Shown here: piece by piece, positions 7,886 through 31,984 of the stretch | Layout: every line of letters starts with the position of its first letter | How positions within the stretch are numbered: the stretch's first letter is position 1 | Assembly: GCF_008064665.1 (NCBI RefSeq) | Contig: NZ_VRZA01000005.1 | Coordinates: 62,001 to 126,000 of the forward strand | Source of the DNA: Parahaliea maris | Lineage (GTDB): Bacteria > Pseudomonadota > Gammaproteobacteria > Pseudomonadales > Halieaceae | DNA: 64,000 nt | Direction of reading: 5' to 3' | Notes under the pieces: generated by a model | Databases searched by the model: none | Told to the model about the DNA's origin: nothing | What the model saw: the letters and a program-made list of their open reading frames with translations, nothing else | Program-made: the position numbers and the translations under genes

Positions 7886-8419
7886 ATGACCTCGCATGCT
7901 GCAAAAGTTCTTTCTAAAACTTCGCCTGATTCCAGTCCAGTGCAGGTCTACTTGGGACTGGGCAGTAACATTGAGCCGACTGAGTCCCTTTTCCTCGGCA
8001 TCAATCGCTTGAAAGAAGCGTTTGGGCAGCTTGAATGTTCGTCAATCTATAAGTCAAATTCGGTCGGTTTTGACGGTGATCCATTCCTGAATCTGGTGGC
8101 CAGGATAGAAACACAATTGCCCCTCGCGGACTTGTACCGTTCCTTGCGGCTAATTGAATTTTCACTGGGCCGCCCCTTTCCCGCGTCGCCAAACAGCTCT
8201 CGTCGATTCGATGCCGACATTTTGCTTTATGGGAACACTATTGGAACATTCGATACTGTCATCCTACCCAGGCCCGAGATACTTTATAACGCTCACGTCC
8301 TCGCCCCGCTGGCAGAGCTATTACCCGGAGGTAAGCATCCACGAACTAAAAAAACGTATAAGGAATTATGGGATTCATTTGAGTTGGGCAATCAACGTAT
8401 TGCGCTCTTTGACGGGTGA
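7886..8419 (+). CDS. folK: HPPK-like 2-amino-4-hydroxy-6-hydroxymethyldihydropteridine pyrophosphokinase paralogue
   Basis: A 177-residue HPPK homologue. The opening VYLGLGSN is at residues 21-28 after an unusual 20-residue leader. GDPFLNLVARIET matches the pterin-binding loop, and RRFDADILLYG carries the two magnesium-binding aspartates (Asp109, Asp111). PRPEILYNAHVLAPLAELLPG is the conserved C-terminal block. The enzyme transfers pyrophosphate from ATP to 6-hydroxymethyl-dihydropterin in folate synthesis. The housekeeping folK normally sits with panBC or folB, so this looks like a second copy. With purU nearby it points to a folate-linked function of the cluster. Confidence 0.82.
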   Translation: MTSHAAKVLSKTSPDSSPVQVYLGLGSNIEPTESLFLGINRLKEAFGQLECSSIYKSNSVGFDGDPFLNLVARIETQLPLADLYRSLRLIEFSLGRPFPASPNSSRRFDADILLYGNTIGTFDTVILPRPEILYNAHVLAPLAELLPGGKHPRTKKTYKELWDSFELGNQRIALFDG

Positions 8420-8476
8420 TCGATCTTTGCGCGGGATAAGCGTAGGGGCGTCGACAACTGGGGATTTTATAGCGGC

Positions 8477-8809
8477 CTAATGAGTACTGGACTTTGAAAG
8501 TAAATTAAGCACGGCGATCCCACAAATTATCAACGCCATACCCAACGCACCCCAGGCATCAAGTTTTTGCCCGTGTAACAGCCACGCGACAACGGATACT
8601 AGAACGATCCCAAGCCCGGACCAAACCGCATAAGCAATCCCAACGGGAATCGACTTCAAGGTAAGGGATAGAAACTAGAATGCGGCCCCATAGCCAACAA
8701 TAACAATGACCGATGGTACGAGCCGGGTAAAACCCTCGCTGGATTTCAGGCTTGAAGTAGCAACAACTTCAAAAGTGATGGCTAGCGCCAGGTATATCCA
8801 ATGTTTCAC
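8477..8809 (-). pseudogene. emrE: EmrE-type SMR multidrug transporter interrupted by one amber codon
   Basis: Reading from a GTG at 8809 (AGGAGG 6 bases upstream) gives 110 codons that align without gaps to EmrE: Glu14, Tyr40, Tyr60 and Trp63 equivalents are present, and the C-terminus is intact. Codon 45 (8675-8677) is TAG where EmrE has Trp45, which is a one-base change from TGG. The two halves are otherwise undamaged, so the loss is recent, or the codon is read through, or it is a sequencing error. SMR proteins are four-helix proton-coupled exporters of cationic drugs that work as dimers. A downstream ATG at codon 51 could only give the last two to three helices. Confidence 0.85.
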
Positions 8810-9422
8810 GACAACCTCCTATGGGCCTATTGCGCCATAGTAAAATCGGTCAGCGAATACGATTAGCAATCTTATTCATTCCAACCCGTTAGTATCGAAT
8901 CCGCCATCATTCGACTTAAGTATGCTCCACTACTGCTGCAATGCTGACACGTATAGAAAACCCCTTGACGGTCGTGGGCATCAGTATTGATCGAAGATGT
9001 ATTCACGTCTGAGGTCGGTTATAGCGCTTTCGTTACCGTTACCGTTGCCGATTGGTAAACGCAGGCATTACGTCCTCAACGAGAAGCGACTCAACAGCCC
9101 GTCGGCGACAGGGTCGAGGCCAGGATCATCCTTGGCGACCTACTTTACTACAACCCAAAAGACGCAATTACGTCCCACAAGGACCAGTAGCAGTCTCCAC
9201 TATACGAAATATCGATCAGCTGATGGTTTGATTATTAGCCGGTTAGTATCCCCCGCATCTTCAACACTTAATTCCCGCTGAGATGTTCATTCTTGCTTTC
9301 CAATTCGAACCCCTTCAGAAACATTAACATTGCTCTTTCCCGCCCCCGCCGTATCCTGAATTCACTTAGTCGCGGCTCACAGTCGCATTAAGTCGCAGGG
9401 CGACCTGCATCCTCCCCATCCG
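8810..9422. other. Gene-poor stretch between the emrE pseudogene and the 63-residue gene
   Basis: About 610 bases without a credible gene. The one longer frame (8997-9281, plus) has a low-complexity arginine/serine-rich composition, no ribosome-binding site and no recognisable motif. The stretch looks like worn-out sequence between two remnants. A short GTTACCGTTACCGTT run occurs near 9034. Confidence 0.5.
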
Positions 9423-27108: not shown

Positions 27109-28317
27109 TCACGCATCGGGAAACAACCCCGGCATCCAGCGCCCCGCCAGGCGCGCGGGAAAGGCGATGTAGAGTGGCGCCCTGGAGCTGGCTGATTGCA
27201 GCACACCCGCGCTCACCAGCGCCGATACCACGCGCCGCGCCTGGCGCTCCCCTGTGCCGACGATGCCGGGGACATCCGCCCTGAATAGCTCACCCCGGTA
27301 CAGCACCGCCTCCAGGACGTTGGCGGACTTGGGCGGCAATTCACCCACTGACACCGCCTCATCCACCCACCGGCGAATGCGTCCATGCAAACTCCTGGGT
27401 TGGACCAGCGCCTCCATGAAAGCCACCTGATCGATACAGGTTTGCAGGAAGAACCCGGAAAATTCCGCAAGCGCCGCTTCACTCAGGTTACCACGGCCGT
27501 CGAGGTCGCCACGCCGGGGCTGGTCACAGGCGGCCAAATGACGTTTGTAGTCAACCTCGTGCCTGGCGAGCCCCCGGGCTATGGACCAGATGCCGCCGGT
27601 ATCGAGTGCGTCACGCAGCATTGAATAGGAGACCAACCTCGCAACGCGGCCATTGCCATCGAGAAAGGGGTGAATCCACAGTAGCCGATGGTGGGCGGCG
27701 GCGGCATTCACTATCGTTGCGGCCTTGCCCTGCCCGGCGAAGGCCTGCTCGAAGCGCTGCAAAAAGCGCGGCAAAGCCCCCGGGCTGACACCAACATGAT
27801 CGCCGACAATGACATCGCGCTGCCGGGGAATGCCCGGTTCGACCAGTACGCGCTCCGACGATTTCGGCTCCTGGACCCACAGCAGGTCGTCGGGCAACCG
27901 TTCGCAGAACCGGCGGTGCAGTTCGCAAATGCCGTCGACGGTGGCCGCCCGGCCCGCCAACCCGCCCTCGTCAATCCAGGCCTGCACCGCCACGTGAGCC
28001 CGCGCTTCCAACTGCAGGTCGCGTTTGCGAGGCTCATTGCTGTAATCACTGTGCAACGCCCGCTCAATATCCACCGGATGGGTATCGTGACCCTCAATGA
28101 GGTTGGAGTAGTAACAGTTCATCGACCGGACCAAAATGGAAAGCGCTGTAGTTACACCTTCGGGCAGGGAGCGACGCAAGCCAGCGGACTTCGCGGTGAG
28201 TTCGACCGCAAGCTCAGTCAATTTAGCCCGGTGAGGCGAAGCGTCGCCGATGACCAAAGGCTCCATACTCGCAATGGCCTCACCGCGATCGACAAAGCCT
28301 GTCGTGCCCGCTTTCAT
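27109..28317 (-). CDS. Fic-family AMPylase-type protein with N-terminal inhibitory helix
   Basis: 402 residues. The Fic core motif is HPFLDGNGR at 216-224 (catalytic His216). An inhibitory helix motif (S/T)xxxE(G/N) is seen as SNLIEG at 71-76, so the enzyme is a class II Fic protein that holds itself inactive until Glu75 is displaced. A C-terminal winged-helix-like region (about 320-400, SANVLEAVLYRGELFRADVP then RQARRVVSALVSAGVL) suggests DNA binding or self-regulation. Fic proteins transfer AMP or related groups to target proteins. It is monocistronic with a 290-base upstream region rich in A/T. Confidence 0.9.
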   Translation of the reverse strand: MKAGTTGFVDRGEAIASMEPLVIGDASPHRAKLTELAVELTAKSAGLRRSLPEGVTTALSILVRSMNCYYSNLIEGHDTHPVDIERALHSDYSNEPRKRDLQLEARAHVAVQAWIDEGGLAGRAATVDGICELHRRFCERLPDDLLWVQEPKSSERVLVEPGIPRQRDVIVGDHVGVSPGALPRFLQRFEQAFAGQGKAATIVNAAAAHHRLLWIHPFLDGNGRVARLVSYSMLRDALDTGGIWSIARGLARHEVDYKRHLAACDQPRRGDLDGRGNLSEAALAEFSGFFLQTCIDQVAFMEALVQPRSLHGRIRRWVDEAVSVGELPPKSANVLEAVLYRGELFRADVPGIVGTGERQARRVVSALVSAGVLQSASSRAPLYIAFPARLAGRWMPGLFPDA

Positions 28318-28607: not shown

Positions 28608-29567
28608 ATGAGCTTCCAGATGTATGAAGATATCGGCCACGGTATCACCCGTATCGATACCGCCATGATGCGCGAGGAACTGGCCGCCTGTTACCTGCTC
28701 GGGGGCCCTGAGTACGCCATTATCGAGACCGGCACCCACAATACGGTGCCGATCATTCTCGACCTGCTCGACCAGCGCGGCATTGCACGGGACCAGGTCA
28801 GGTTCGTCATTCCGACCCACGTACACCTGGATCATGCCGGCGGTGTGGGTGGCCTGATGCAGGCACTGCCAGACGCCACGCTGCTGGTCCACCCCGCCGG
28901 CGCCAGACACATGATAGACCCCGCCAAGCTGAAGGCGGGCGCCATGGCCGTTTACGGTGAAGCAGCCTTTGCCGAAATGTACGGTGACATCATTCCGGTG
29001 GAGGAAAGCCGGGTCAGGACCATGGCCGACGGAGAGCGCATTGAGTTAGGTGACCGCCAACTGGTGTTCTACGATACCCCGGGCCACGCCCGTCACCACT
29101 TTTGCGTTCACGACCCGCTGTCACAGGGCATTTTTACCGGCGATACCTTCGGGCTGGCCTACCCGCGGCTGACCACCCACCAGGGGCCATTCATCTTCCC
29201 TACCACGACACCGGTGCAGTTTGACCCTGCGGCATTGAAGGCCTCCATACGCCGGTTGCTGGCGCTGAACCCGGCGCGTATCTACCTCACGCACTACGGC
29301 ATGGTGGATGCCCCGCAGGCATTGGGAGAGCGCCTGCTGGCGCAGGTGGACGACTATGTGGCGCTGGCGGAAGACGTTGCGGCCAGTTCACCGGCCGAAC
29401 AGTGGGAAGGCGAACTGATGGGCAGGATGGCCGATTACCTGTTTGCCAGCGCGCGGGAGCACGGCTGTGCACTGTCAGAGAGTGAACTGCAGGACGTGCT
29501 GGGCATGGATGTCAGGCTCAACAGCCAGGGGCTGGCGGTCTGGTTAAGCGCTCGCAACACTGGCTGA
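28608..29567 (+). CDS. MBL-fold metallo-hydrolase
   Basis: 319 residues. The zinc-binding HxHxDH motif is HVHLDH (71-76) followed by AGGVGG; further ligands appear in GHARHHFCVHD and near the C-terminus (LTHYG). The two-metal beta-lactamase fold covers residues 15-230, and the remaining 90 are helical. Many proteins with this motif are glyoxalase II-like or lactonase-like hydrolases. No neighbour clearly shares a pathway. It lies 37 bases after a GC-rich region and is probably transcribed from its own promoter. Confidence 0.9.
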   Translation: MSFQMYEDIGHGITRIDTAMMREELAACYLLGGPEYAIIETGTHNTVPIILDLLDQRGIARDQVRFVIPTHVHLDHAGGVGGLMQALPDATLLVHPAGARHMIDPAKLKAGAMAVYGEAAFAEMYGDIIPVEESRVRTMADGERIELGDRQLVFYDTPGHARHHFCVHDPLSQGIFTGDTFGLAYPRLTTHQGPFIFPTTTPVQFDPAALKASIRRLLALNPARIYLTHYGMVDAPQALGERLLAQVDDYVALAEDVAASSPAEQWEGELMGRMADYLFASAREHGCALSESELQDVLGMDVRLNSQGLAVWLSARNTG

Positions 29568-29704: not shown

Positions 29705-29992
29705 ATGAGAATCACCCCCCTCGTATTCGCTACCGCTTTTGCCCTGGCATCCGCCACCAACGGACTCCAGGCCAACGAACCTCTCGCTACCCTCGCAGAT
29801 GTTCCGGCGGTAAAAATGACCAGTGACGAGCTGGCCCAGGTCCGTGGGGAGGGTCACGTACGCCTCCTGGTGTTGCAGCAAACGGGCAAGACCGAACTGC
29901 CCACTGCAGCGGCTGCCGCTGCCACTGATGCCGCGGGATCGATAGGCGCTGTAGGTAACGATCGGCCGGCGATTCTCCGCCTCCTCAATTAG
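29705..29992 (+). CDS. Small exported peptide with a double-glycine-leader-like motif
   Basis: 95 residues with a Sec signal peptide (residues 1-23, ending LQANE). The segment MTSDELAQVRGEG at 38-50 resembles the ELxxVxGG leader of peptides processed by C39 peptidases, here with Gly48-Glu-Gly50 in place of GG. The C-terminal part is rich in alanine (PTAAAAAATDAAGS), which suggests a disordered or assembling segment. A ribosome-binding site GAAGGAG precedes the start. The next gene codes for a C39 peptidase and the one after for an outer-membrane barrel, so this is the likely substrate of the module. Inference only. Confidence 0.6.
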   Translation: MRITPLVFATAFALASATNGLQANEPLATLADVPAVKMTSDELAQVRGEGHVRLLVLQQTGKTELPTAAAAAATDAAGSIGAVGNDRPAILRLLN

Positions 29993-30018
29993 GCCTGATC
30001 ATCCGGCACAGACCGGAG

Positions 30019-30738
30019 TTGCCACGGCTGTTTGACTGCCGGGTCATCGCGACGGCGGTGACTGCCACGCTCGTGGCCGCCGGGCCCGCTGGGGCCGCGA
30101 GCGTCTCCATCGGTAACGGGGACCGGGTCAACGCGCCCGTCACCTCCTTCCGGGCGCTGCGCGACGCCAACCTGGTGCGCCAGCAGTTTGACTTCTCCTG
30201 CGGGGCTGCTGCCCTGGCAACCCTCCTGCGCTACCAATTTGGCGATGCGGTCACCGAGCGCGAGATTCTTCACGACCTGTTCCAACTGCTACCCGAGAGT
30301 GATCAGGCACTGCGGCGCGCCGAGGGCTTTTCTCTGCTGGATCTGCAGCGTGTAGCACGCGCGCGCGGCTACCGGGCCGAGGGCTATCGCCTGACGCCGG
30401 AATCCCTCTCTCGCCTCAACGGCCCGGTGATCGTGTTTATCGAGCCCCAGGGTTACAAGCACTTTGCCGTGCTGCGTGGCACCCGCGGTGACCGCGTCTA
30501 CCTGGCCGATCCTTCCCGCGGCAATATCCGTCTGGCGGGCTACCGCTTCCTCGACTCTTGGCTGGACGACCACGGACAGGGAATCATCTTTGTGGTGGAG
30601 CCGCAGCAAGGTCTGCCGGCGGCGTCGAGCCCACTGGCGGTGCCGGACACCGACCAACCCCAACCAGAGATGCTCAGCGCGCGCGAATTACTGAGCGTCG
30701 GCAGCCCCTTTGAACATTTACCCAACCTGTCGAGGTAG
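30019..30738 (+). CDS. C39-family peptidase, periplasmic
   Basis: A 239-residue protein with a signal peptide (hydrophobic 9-27, ending AGAAS) and a papain-like C39 domain. The catalytic residues can be read as Cys61 (DFSCGAAALATLL), His148 (GYKHFAVLRG) and Asp164 (LADPSRG). The start is probably the TTG at 30019 with GACCGGAG close upstream; a GTG further in would damage the signal. Unlike bacteriocin exporters there is no ABC transporter fused, so the enzyme works in the periplasm, as FapD does in functional-amyloid systems. Flanked by a small leader-like peptide gene and an outer-membrane protein gene. Confidence 0.85.
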   Translation: MPRLFDCRVIATAVTATLVAAGPAGAASVSIGNGDRVNAPVTSFRALRDANLVRQQFDFSCGAAALATLLRYQFGDAVTEREILHDLFQLLPESDQALRRAEGFSLLDLQRVARARGYRAEGYRLTPESLSRLNGPVIVFIEPQGYKHFAVLRGTRGDRVYLADPSRGNIRLAGYRFLDSWLDDHGQGIIFVVEPQQGLPAASSPLAVPDTDQPQPEMLSARELLSVGSPFEHLPNLSR

Positions 30739-30742
30739 CGCC

Positions 30743-31984
30743 GTGACATTACTCGCCAACCCGGAAGCAACCCCGCATTGCAGCGGCCGCGCCCTGCTAC
30801 TCGGCATCCTGATCACCTGGGCCACCACCGTGGCGGCGACCGACGGACACCAGCCGGAGCCCGCCCCGGAACACTGGCCCGAGGTCCTGACCCTGGATCA
30901 GGCCGCTCGCTACCTGCAACTGGACCCGGCAAGCCTGGGCCTGCTGGCCCTTGAGGACGGGATACCGGCCCGACGTGTCGGGAATGACTGGCGCTTCAGT
31001 CGCCAGGCATTGCAGGCCTGGCTCGCCGGGGACTGGCACCTGATCGCCTCCGCCGAACGGTTCGACGGCGAGCCCCCTCTCACAACCACTGCCCTGGCCA
31101 GTGTTCGGGGCGCGGGCACCGGGCGCACGGCGGAGGACGCCGGCGAACTCGCGAGCGAGCGCTCCCCCGAGCACATTGGTGAGGCTCCCCAGGAACGCAG
31201 CGCCGGTGATATTTTCCTGCGCGGACAGCGGGTGCTGCTGCGCCCGGGGGACGTAACGCTGGATTTCGGCAGCTTTTATTCACAGAGCAGCGCCCAGCAA
31301 CTGGTACAAATCGATGATGGCATCGCCCTGGCGGACCTGGAGAGCGAGGGCCTGACCGGCCTCCTGCTGGCTCGCTACGGCCTTTTCGAGGAGACGGAGA
31401 TCTTCCTGAGCACCTCCTGGTCCGACCAGGACACCAAGCTGCGCGTGGCCGACCAGACAATCGCCAGCGACAATCGCTCGGAACTGGGCGATTTTCGCCT
31501 CGGATTGCGCCGCACCCTGCTCACCGAGACGGTTGGGCGCCCGGATATCATCCTGACTCTCAACGGGCGCATTCCCAGCGACAGCGACCACTCCTCCTAT
31601 GCACTGGGGGCCGGCCTTGGCGTGGTGAAAAGCATCGACCCGGTGGTGCTGTTTGCCAACCTCCACTACCGCCATACCTACAGCGATGACTTCGAGGACA
31701 TTACCCGGCTGGAACCCGAAAACCGGCTGGACCTGAATCTGGGCTACGCCTTCGCCATCAACGACACCCTGTCCCTCAACACCACGCTATCGGGACTGTT
31801 TATCGACGAGACCCGTTTCGACAATGCCACCCTGCTCAGCGACGAGCTCTTCAGCCTGCAGTTCAGCATGACCTCCTGGCTGGCGGAGGGCCTGTATATC
31901 GAGCCGGCCGTCGGGTTCCGGCTGAACGGCCCAGGCAAGGGATTCTTTATCGGTATGACACTGCCTTATACTTTCGAGCCATAA
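30743..31984 (+). CDS. Outer-membrane barrel-like protein with N-terminal excisionase-like domain
   Basis: Start is a GTG 4 bases after the C39 stop, with GAGG at good spacing; an earlier frame would overlap the peptidase. After a signal peptide (to about residue 34), residues 48-96 (PEVLTLDQAARYLQLDPA, GIPARRVGNDWRFSRQALQAWLAG) read as an excisionase/MerR-like winged helix-turn-helix. This is followed by a linker (100-165) and a repetitive beta region from about 170 to the end with terminal TLPYTFEP, typical of an outer-membrane barrel. A DNA-binding-type fold on an exported protein is odd; it may have been reused for protein binding. A pore or secretion role like FapF is plausible. Confidence 0.7.
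   Translation: MTLLANPEATPHCSGRALLLGILITWATTVAATDGHQPEPAPEHWPEVLTLDQAARYLQLDPASLGLLALEDGIPARRVGNDWRFSRQALQAWLAGDWHLIASAERFDGEPPLTTTALASVRGAGTGRTAEDAGELASERSPEHIGEAPQERSAGDIFLRGQRVLLRPGDVTLDFGSFYSQSSAQQLVQIDDGIALADLESEGLTGLLLARYGLFEETEIFLSTSWSDQDTKLRVADQTIASDNRSELGDFRLGLRRTLLTETVGRPDIILTLNGRIPSDSDHSSYALGAGLGVVKSIDPVVLFANLHYRHTYSDDFEDITRLEPENRLDLNLGYAFAINDTLSLNTTLSGLFIDETRFDNATLLSDELFSLQFSMTSWLAEGLYIEPAVGFRLNGPGKGFFIGMTLPYTFEP

Follow-up and report, generated by a model that had tools for sequence, protein, structure and literature searches.

A putative Sec-dependent peptide processing and export set in Parahaliea maris, related to the Fap and Fil systems

Results

Gene content of the locus

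The window, by which we mean the whole stretch of 64,000 nucleotides of Parahaliea maris analysed here, carries three adjoining open reading frames on its plus strand between positions 29705 and 31984, and their coordinates bear out the place given in the original prediction. P1 (29705..29992, +), called from its open frame and ribosome site, encodes a small exported precursor peptide of 95 amino acids with signal-like residues 1-23; it starts with ATG, and an AAGGAG ends 7 nt upstream. P2 (30019..30738, +; 239 amino acids) encodes an exported C39 peptidase (PF03412, 3.2e-19) with Cys61, His148 and Asp164, whose start codon is unsure because it is a TTG with a GGAG directly against it. P3 (30743..31984, +; 413 amino acids), recognised from its open frame, Pfam matches and a structural model, joins an HTH_17 domain, a linker and a FapF-like barrel in one exported chain; it starts with GTG, with a GAGG 7 nt upstream, and a TTG at 30710 is a possible alternative start. 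Signal peptides were called from a crude hydrophobicity screen and by eye. P1 and P2 are parted by 26 nt, P2 and P3 by 4 nt, and all three frames are open.

An MBL-fold gene (28608-29567) lies upstream and a pseudouridine synthase gene, from 31992, downstream. The operon has a GC content of 0.647; tiles average 0.598 (sd 0.045), and a departure of about one standard deviation is not telling. In search of an empty site, we matched ten window proteins to the region around the homologous pseudouridine synthase gene of three other genomes (G002, G004 and G013); only the synthase itself found a counterpart. Elsewhere in the window, the minus-strand frame 27109-28317 contains HPFLDGNGR, which we take to be a Fic-domain motif.

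No amyloid-like gene stands beside P1-P3. The amyloid-like subunit from the full Fap-like operon L155 of G002, a genome of the same genus, found no match in the own genome and did find matches in G002 and in G004, of the same family; the own-genome search with the FapC model NF058558 carries no weight, as all 14 controls were silent. The amyloid subunits thus appear to be missing, as had been predicted.

The leader motif of the small precursor

Part of PMC6363468 gives the C39 leader rule as L(-12)-x3-E(-8)-L(-7) before GG, GA or GS, and an excerpt of PMC10885120 describes hydrophobic positions -4, -7 and -12 and the pockets of LahT. Set in this register, P1 reads M-T-S-D-E-L-A-Q-V-R-G-E|G, with a hydrophobic residue at -12, E at -8, L at -7, a hydrophobic residue at -4 and G at -2. 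The leader end M38-E49 (MTSDELAQVRGE; 29816..29851, +) is the predicted C39 recognition sequence with a predicted cut at E49|G50, which would release a product of 46 residues, G50-N95 (29852..29989, +). Hydrophobic residues at -12, -7 and -4 and G at -2 are found both here and in the P3 linker, where residues -2 and -1 are GA; in P1 they are GE, outside the classical GG, GA and GS. Set against the GG-type leaders after which C39 peptidases cut, RGE|G has the glycine at -2 and departs from the type at -1.

We scored this spacing with a leader matrix built from 24 FapE-type motifs, picked by pattern from 23 loci among L007-L086 with the window excluded. Over the 88,909 six-frame positions of the window, P1 ranked first (19.4 bits) and the P3 linker second (14.4 bits), followed by a position at 11.5 bits; a motif in the neighbouring MBL-fold gene (29469, 10.7 bits) was taken as chance. 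In 49 test loci, which are other or held-out loci together with the window's own and of which L258 is, by its length, probably the contig of L053, a training locus, and L255 likewise that of L016, which lay outside the training set, the best small exported frame reached at least 8 bits on the same strand in 28 and on the opposite strand in one, the sole opposite-strand match being the divergent peptide frame of L116 itself. At thresholds of 4, 6, 10 and 12 bits the same- and opposite-strand counts were 38/5, 34/3, 24/1 and 22/1. The 21 test loci under 8 bits include eight of the 12 that we label H-type, and three loci whose fap operon we read as Pseudomonas-like (L263, L267, L270) scored 15.8 to 17.0 bits. 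Plain leader patterns pointed the same way in 109 loci (61 versus 16 with the loose pattern, 16 versus 2 with the strict one), counted after a strict first signal-peptide screen (24/109 loci) had been loosened. These locus counts leave out 64 short loci (L001-L006, L087-L115, L125-L153) and keep 110, with a C39 gene in 109 and none in L117; in an earlier set of 154 loci, 28 were without C39. The P1 motif is more than chance.

P1 matches no Pfam family at E 1, and a phmmer search against the frames of 80 loci (the best 80 of 116 P2 relatives) returned nothing credible, the best E being 0.28. Because no credible product homologue was found among these 80 loci, the conservation of P1 rests on its leader pattern and not on its product. 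What is kept among relatives is the spacing, not the literal ELAQVRGEG to which attention had first been drawn; a leader-bearing exported frame occurs in many, though not in all, of the related loci. The leader spacing beside related C39 genes supports the proposal that the peptide is the substrate of the peptidase.

Fold, family and descent of the peptidase

The assignment of P2 to C39 with the triad C61, H148 and D164 stands: these residues are invariant in 30 aligned rows, and the structure closest to the P2 model (pLDDT 80) is 6mpz (E 4.6e-9), in which a C39 domain holds a leader. Since non-proteolytic C39-like domains acting on substrates as chaperones are known (passages in PMC5557850 and PMC6173800), P2 might bind the P1 leader as a chaperone and not cut it; with the triad present and invariant, and with FapC secretion abolished in a FapD Cys-to-Ala mutant according to a section of PMC5557850, we regard this as very unlikely. 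PF03412 has a single match in the own genome, inside a 259-aa open frame (P2), with no fused ABC transporter. Against NCBIfam models P2 scores 131.8 bits (2.2e-38) for FapD, short of the cut-off of 330, and 104 bits for FilB, short of 475.

Our phylogenetic analyses set this peptidase apart. In a C39 tree of 109 rows, for which the program warned of long branches, 17 rows (the window, L116, L118, L119, L120 and 12 H-type rows) split from 92 carrying Fap and Fil labels with support 100/98, where 'Fap' is the default for rows not typed otherwise, not checked singly, and 'Fil', 'H-type' and 'Pseudomonas-type' are working labels from gene order and sequence. The window peptidase pairs with that of L116 (96/77; 64% identity over 117 columns), and L121, L123 and L124, labelled Fap, group with Fil rows (84/33). 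A tree of 46 rows that omits L118 and all H-type rows still sets five core rows, L251 among them, apart from the rest (97 SH-aLRT), with L121 and L124 adjoining the window group (85). When eight H-type rows, L118 and one PCAT row were included, the window side comprised 15 rows with support 98 and the single-peptide rows fell at the base, which is only a hint since the PCAT branch is very long (6.35). Judged by these trees, the window peptidase belongs by descent to neither the Fap nor the Fil peptidases, though it may work like one.

This placement bears on whether P1-P3 are the decayed remnant of a full Fap operon that has lost its amyloid genes and has no present function. Full Fap-like operons do occur in the same genus (L155 in G002) and the same family (L154 in G004), and part of PMC3792158 describes the remains of partly deleted fap operons; yet P2 does not group with the Fap rows, not even with those from G002 and G004, all three frames are open with the triad intact, and an HTH_17 domain in place of the coiled coil recurs in another genome, G265. 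We consider such a remnant quite unlikely.

The barrel protein

P3 is predicted to be, as foreseen, an outer-membrane-like barrel with an excisionase-like domain. Residues 48-95 (30884..31027, +) match HTH_17 (PF12728, 1.6e-8; TIGR01764, 1.2e-5, below its cut-off), and residues 171-411 (31253..31975, +) are modelled as a beta-barrel, mostly at pLDDT 80-95, for which the first 18 PDB rows are all FapF. The HTH_17 domain is not resolved in the model, and none of the aligned rows has that domain. The NCBIfam FapF model gives 5.6e-12 and 45.2 bits, short of its cut-off of 700; together with the FapD match of P2, likewise far below the curated cut-off, and the FapF-like model, this upholds the likeness to FapD and FapF seen at the outset. 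A plasmid search with P3 returned only HTH matches, in two Sulfobacillus plasmids.

HTH_17 domains are usually DNA-binding, and the Pfam match might be taken to make P3 a regulator acting on DNA, in which case the signal-like N-terminus would be a misreading and the barrel would have nothing to do with export. In P3 and in L116 alike, however, HTH_17 comes after a hydrophobic signal-like stretch, and the same P3 chain carries the FapF-like barrel, so that this reading seems to us scarcely credible.

Between the two domains, the linker contains the leader-like motif L113-A124 (LTTTALASVRGA; 31079..31114, +), a possible second C39 site at A124|G125. After a cut there, the barrel would keep only a short helix (154-161) in front of it and so resemble the crystallised FapF fragment 83-406 of PMC5557850, in which a passage notes GG and GA motifs just before the start of that fragment. 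In FapF-like barrels the N-terminal part reached p <=0.05 against its own shuffles in 30/107 rows where about five were expected; the other 77 did not reach p 0.05, and the rows, among them many from Massilia and Cupriavidus, are non-independent. We rejected the idea that near kin retain the linker motif, since L118 scores -5.8 bits. The linker may be a second C39 site, a weaker claim than that for P1 because the L118 linker lacks the motif.

Related loci

From the 116 relatives found by scanning genome contigs with P2, we retained the best 80. Among 11 of these that were examined, at least six (L008, L016, L050, L073, L083, L086) have repeat-rich amyloid-like proteins beside the C39 gene; in L050, L016, L086 and L073 the C39 gene is followed by one for a small exported protein whose motif resembles DEELASLRGGF. 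Genome searches found closer kin in G265 and G230. In G230 (L119), a small exported protein with MPEDQLASIEGT is followed by C39 and barrel, and in G265 (L118) one with MSSQQMASITGE lies between barrel and C39, so that in both a small exported protein with P1-like leader spacing stands beside C39 and barrel. A second G265 locus (L116), nearest by C39, has a C39 gene and then an exported HTH_17 domain, a match of 57% identity that is cut by the contig end; its leader-bearing frames lie on the opposite strand at distances from about 3 kb upward, and a FapF-like barrel stands at the start of another contig (L117). Apart from G265, no other barrel locus among the loci collected gave a credible HTH match. 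As separate observations, three adjoining exported frames of L116 (1182-2087, 2229-2951, 4324-4920, -) carry leaders like MTAAEMDAVQGK on the strand opposite C39 and HTH_17, and the G265 C39 gene next to the HTH_17 frame (L116:6562-7239) contains one in-frame stop.

The leader match is weak in L120 (6.0 bits); in G289 (L251:637-894, -) a 79-aa precursor beside C39 and barrel scores 7.1 bits, with a predicted product of 13 residues. C39 matches at E <=0.001 were found with P2 in 35/97 relatives and with profile A1 in 83/398 phylum, 76/369 class and 107/322 order genomes, many of the A1 matches sitting in long open frames of ABC-transporter size; the best A1 match outside G265 and G230, both of which are in the profile, was G289 (2.1e-53). 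The form found in the window looks rare in the genomes sampled. Two contigs each carry two C39 genes, close together in G534:C78 (L262) and separated by about 2.9 kb in G581:C11 (L269), where the two score the same.

The H-type comprises 12 loci of the window's bacterial family (L159-L161, L163, L165-L169, L171-L173), in all of which barrel and C39 share a strand and the barrel comes first. By pattern search, nine (L159-L161, L163, L165, L166, L171-L173) carry a leader and, behind it, a hydrophobic product that ends near its CxxC; in L167, L168 and L169 a leader-like exported frame was recognised by eye. A small membrane protein lies ahead of C39 in L159, L163, L166, L171 and L172. Only 4/12 reach at least 8 bits under the leader matrix, position -4 often being T, N or S. 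These nine loci look like an undescribed single-peptide family.

In the seven Fil-labelled loci (L040, L122, L158, L164, L170, L264, L266) the barrel comes directly after C39. A FilA-like leader, for instance L-D-D-S-A-L-A-D-V-T-G-Q, occurs in three, and contig ends are near in some others; the FilA-like exported proteins with leader spacing before VTGQ or ITGQ are L264:7195-7635 (-), L158:6858-7772 and 7910-9007 (-), and L266:5061-5747 (+).

Discussion

How the P1-P3 set relates to known systems is best seen by setting them side by side. With Fap (FapABCDEF) it shares an exported C39 peptidase, a FapF-like barrel and a small exported protein with FapE-like leader spacing; it differs in lacking the amyloid subunits FapB/FapC and FapA, in having HTH_17 where FapF has a periplasmic coiled coil, and in a peptidase that branches outside the Fap rows, with P2 and P3 under the NCBIfam cut-offs. 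The Fil system, with FilB as its C39 protein, FilC as its barrel and FilA, which a section of PMC11784438 calls a pilus subunit, likewise has C39 and barrel side by side and, in three of the seven loci, a leader of like spacing; in the window, however, the pseudouridine synthase gene and not a FadL-like gene follows P3, and P2 lies outside the Fil rows. The H-type loci have the barrel, a short leader-bearing exported precursor and a C39 peptidase from the same side of the tree, whereas their barrel is upstream and without HTH_17, a small membrane protein often lies between, and the product is hydrophobic with CxxC in 9/12. The PCAT/AMS exporters LahT, ComA and PCAT1 share the C39 fold and the leader spacing, in contrast to which the window set has no ABC transporter, a periplasmic peptidase and a proposed substrate that would first pass through Sec.

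We think it fairly probable that P1-P3 form a minimal set that processes and exports a peptide in a Sec-dependent way and stands next to Fap and Fil as a sister, not as a member of either. The signal-like N-termini suggest that all three proteins cross the inner membrane by Sec. In the periplasm, P2 would bind the P1 leader via M-12, L-7 and V-4 and cut after RGE at E49|G50, as the spacing, the intact triad and the fold suggest, and the 46-residue product would then, by analogy with Fap, exit through the FapF-like barrel of P3. More tentatively, the P3 linker may be a second target of P2; a cut at A124|G125 would separate a periplasmic HTH_17 domain from the barrel. The earlier idea of a minimal system for one small peptide gains support from spacing, triad and barrel, and the FapD- and FapF-like order keeps its likeness with two corrections, the branching of P2 outside the Fap rows and the second leader-like site in the barrel protein.

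Alternatively, the set might nucleate an amyloid or adhesin, its P1 product being a small subunit of a surface fibre and not a signal, a bacteriocin or some other free peptide. Fibre proteins are exported by Fap and Fil rows, and the L118 peptide has a NTNTNTNNNTNNN stretch; the P1 product itself is without such repeats, though, and the products of the H-type and of G289 are short and hydrophobic, so that we hold a fibre subunit to be possible but the less probable outcome. As to the origin of the processing and export set that we favour, it is tempting to speculate, even if we deem it unlikely, that single-peptide sets are older and Fap and Fil export derived, that P2 cuts both peptide and pore, and that HTH_17 grips the leader at the pore mouth instead of DNA. 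The cytoplasmic binding of RiPP leaders by winged-helix RRE domains offers a comparison.

The substrate of FapD was called undetermined in part of a 2018 paper (PMC6173800), and passages of a 2017 paper state that Fap proteins lack canonical C39 sequences (PMC5557850); an excerpt of a 2025 paper (PMC12822426) names FapE and the periplasmic portion of FapF as proteins that FapD is 'thought to' process. FapE and FapF as possible FapD targets are already published (sections of PMC5557850 and PMC12822426), as is a double-glycine motif in FapF (an excerpt of PMC5135000). Parts of PMC6173800 report that fapD and fapF co-occur beyond the known Fap phyla, and parts of PMC3792158 take the view that FapD and FapF are members of larger families. 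Among the open papers listed in our searches, no title or abstract opening assigned a -12/-7/-4/-2 leader to FapE and none described an exported HTH_17 barrel. The common leader spacing, read from sequence, suggests that FapE is a FapD substrate. We add to this the leader register, its occurrence in single-peptide as well as Fap-like sets, and the minimal form found in the window.

Such a minimal set is useful, given that FapD must be catalytically intact for FapC secretion, as far as the cited sections go, while its cut site is unsettled; and the one leader spacing common to P1, FapE-like and other small exported proteins names the exact residues to mutate. If our reading is true, Fap, Fil and several single-peptide sets would use one Sec-plus-C39-plus-barrel route, and the predicted 46-residue product would be a new secreted peptide.
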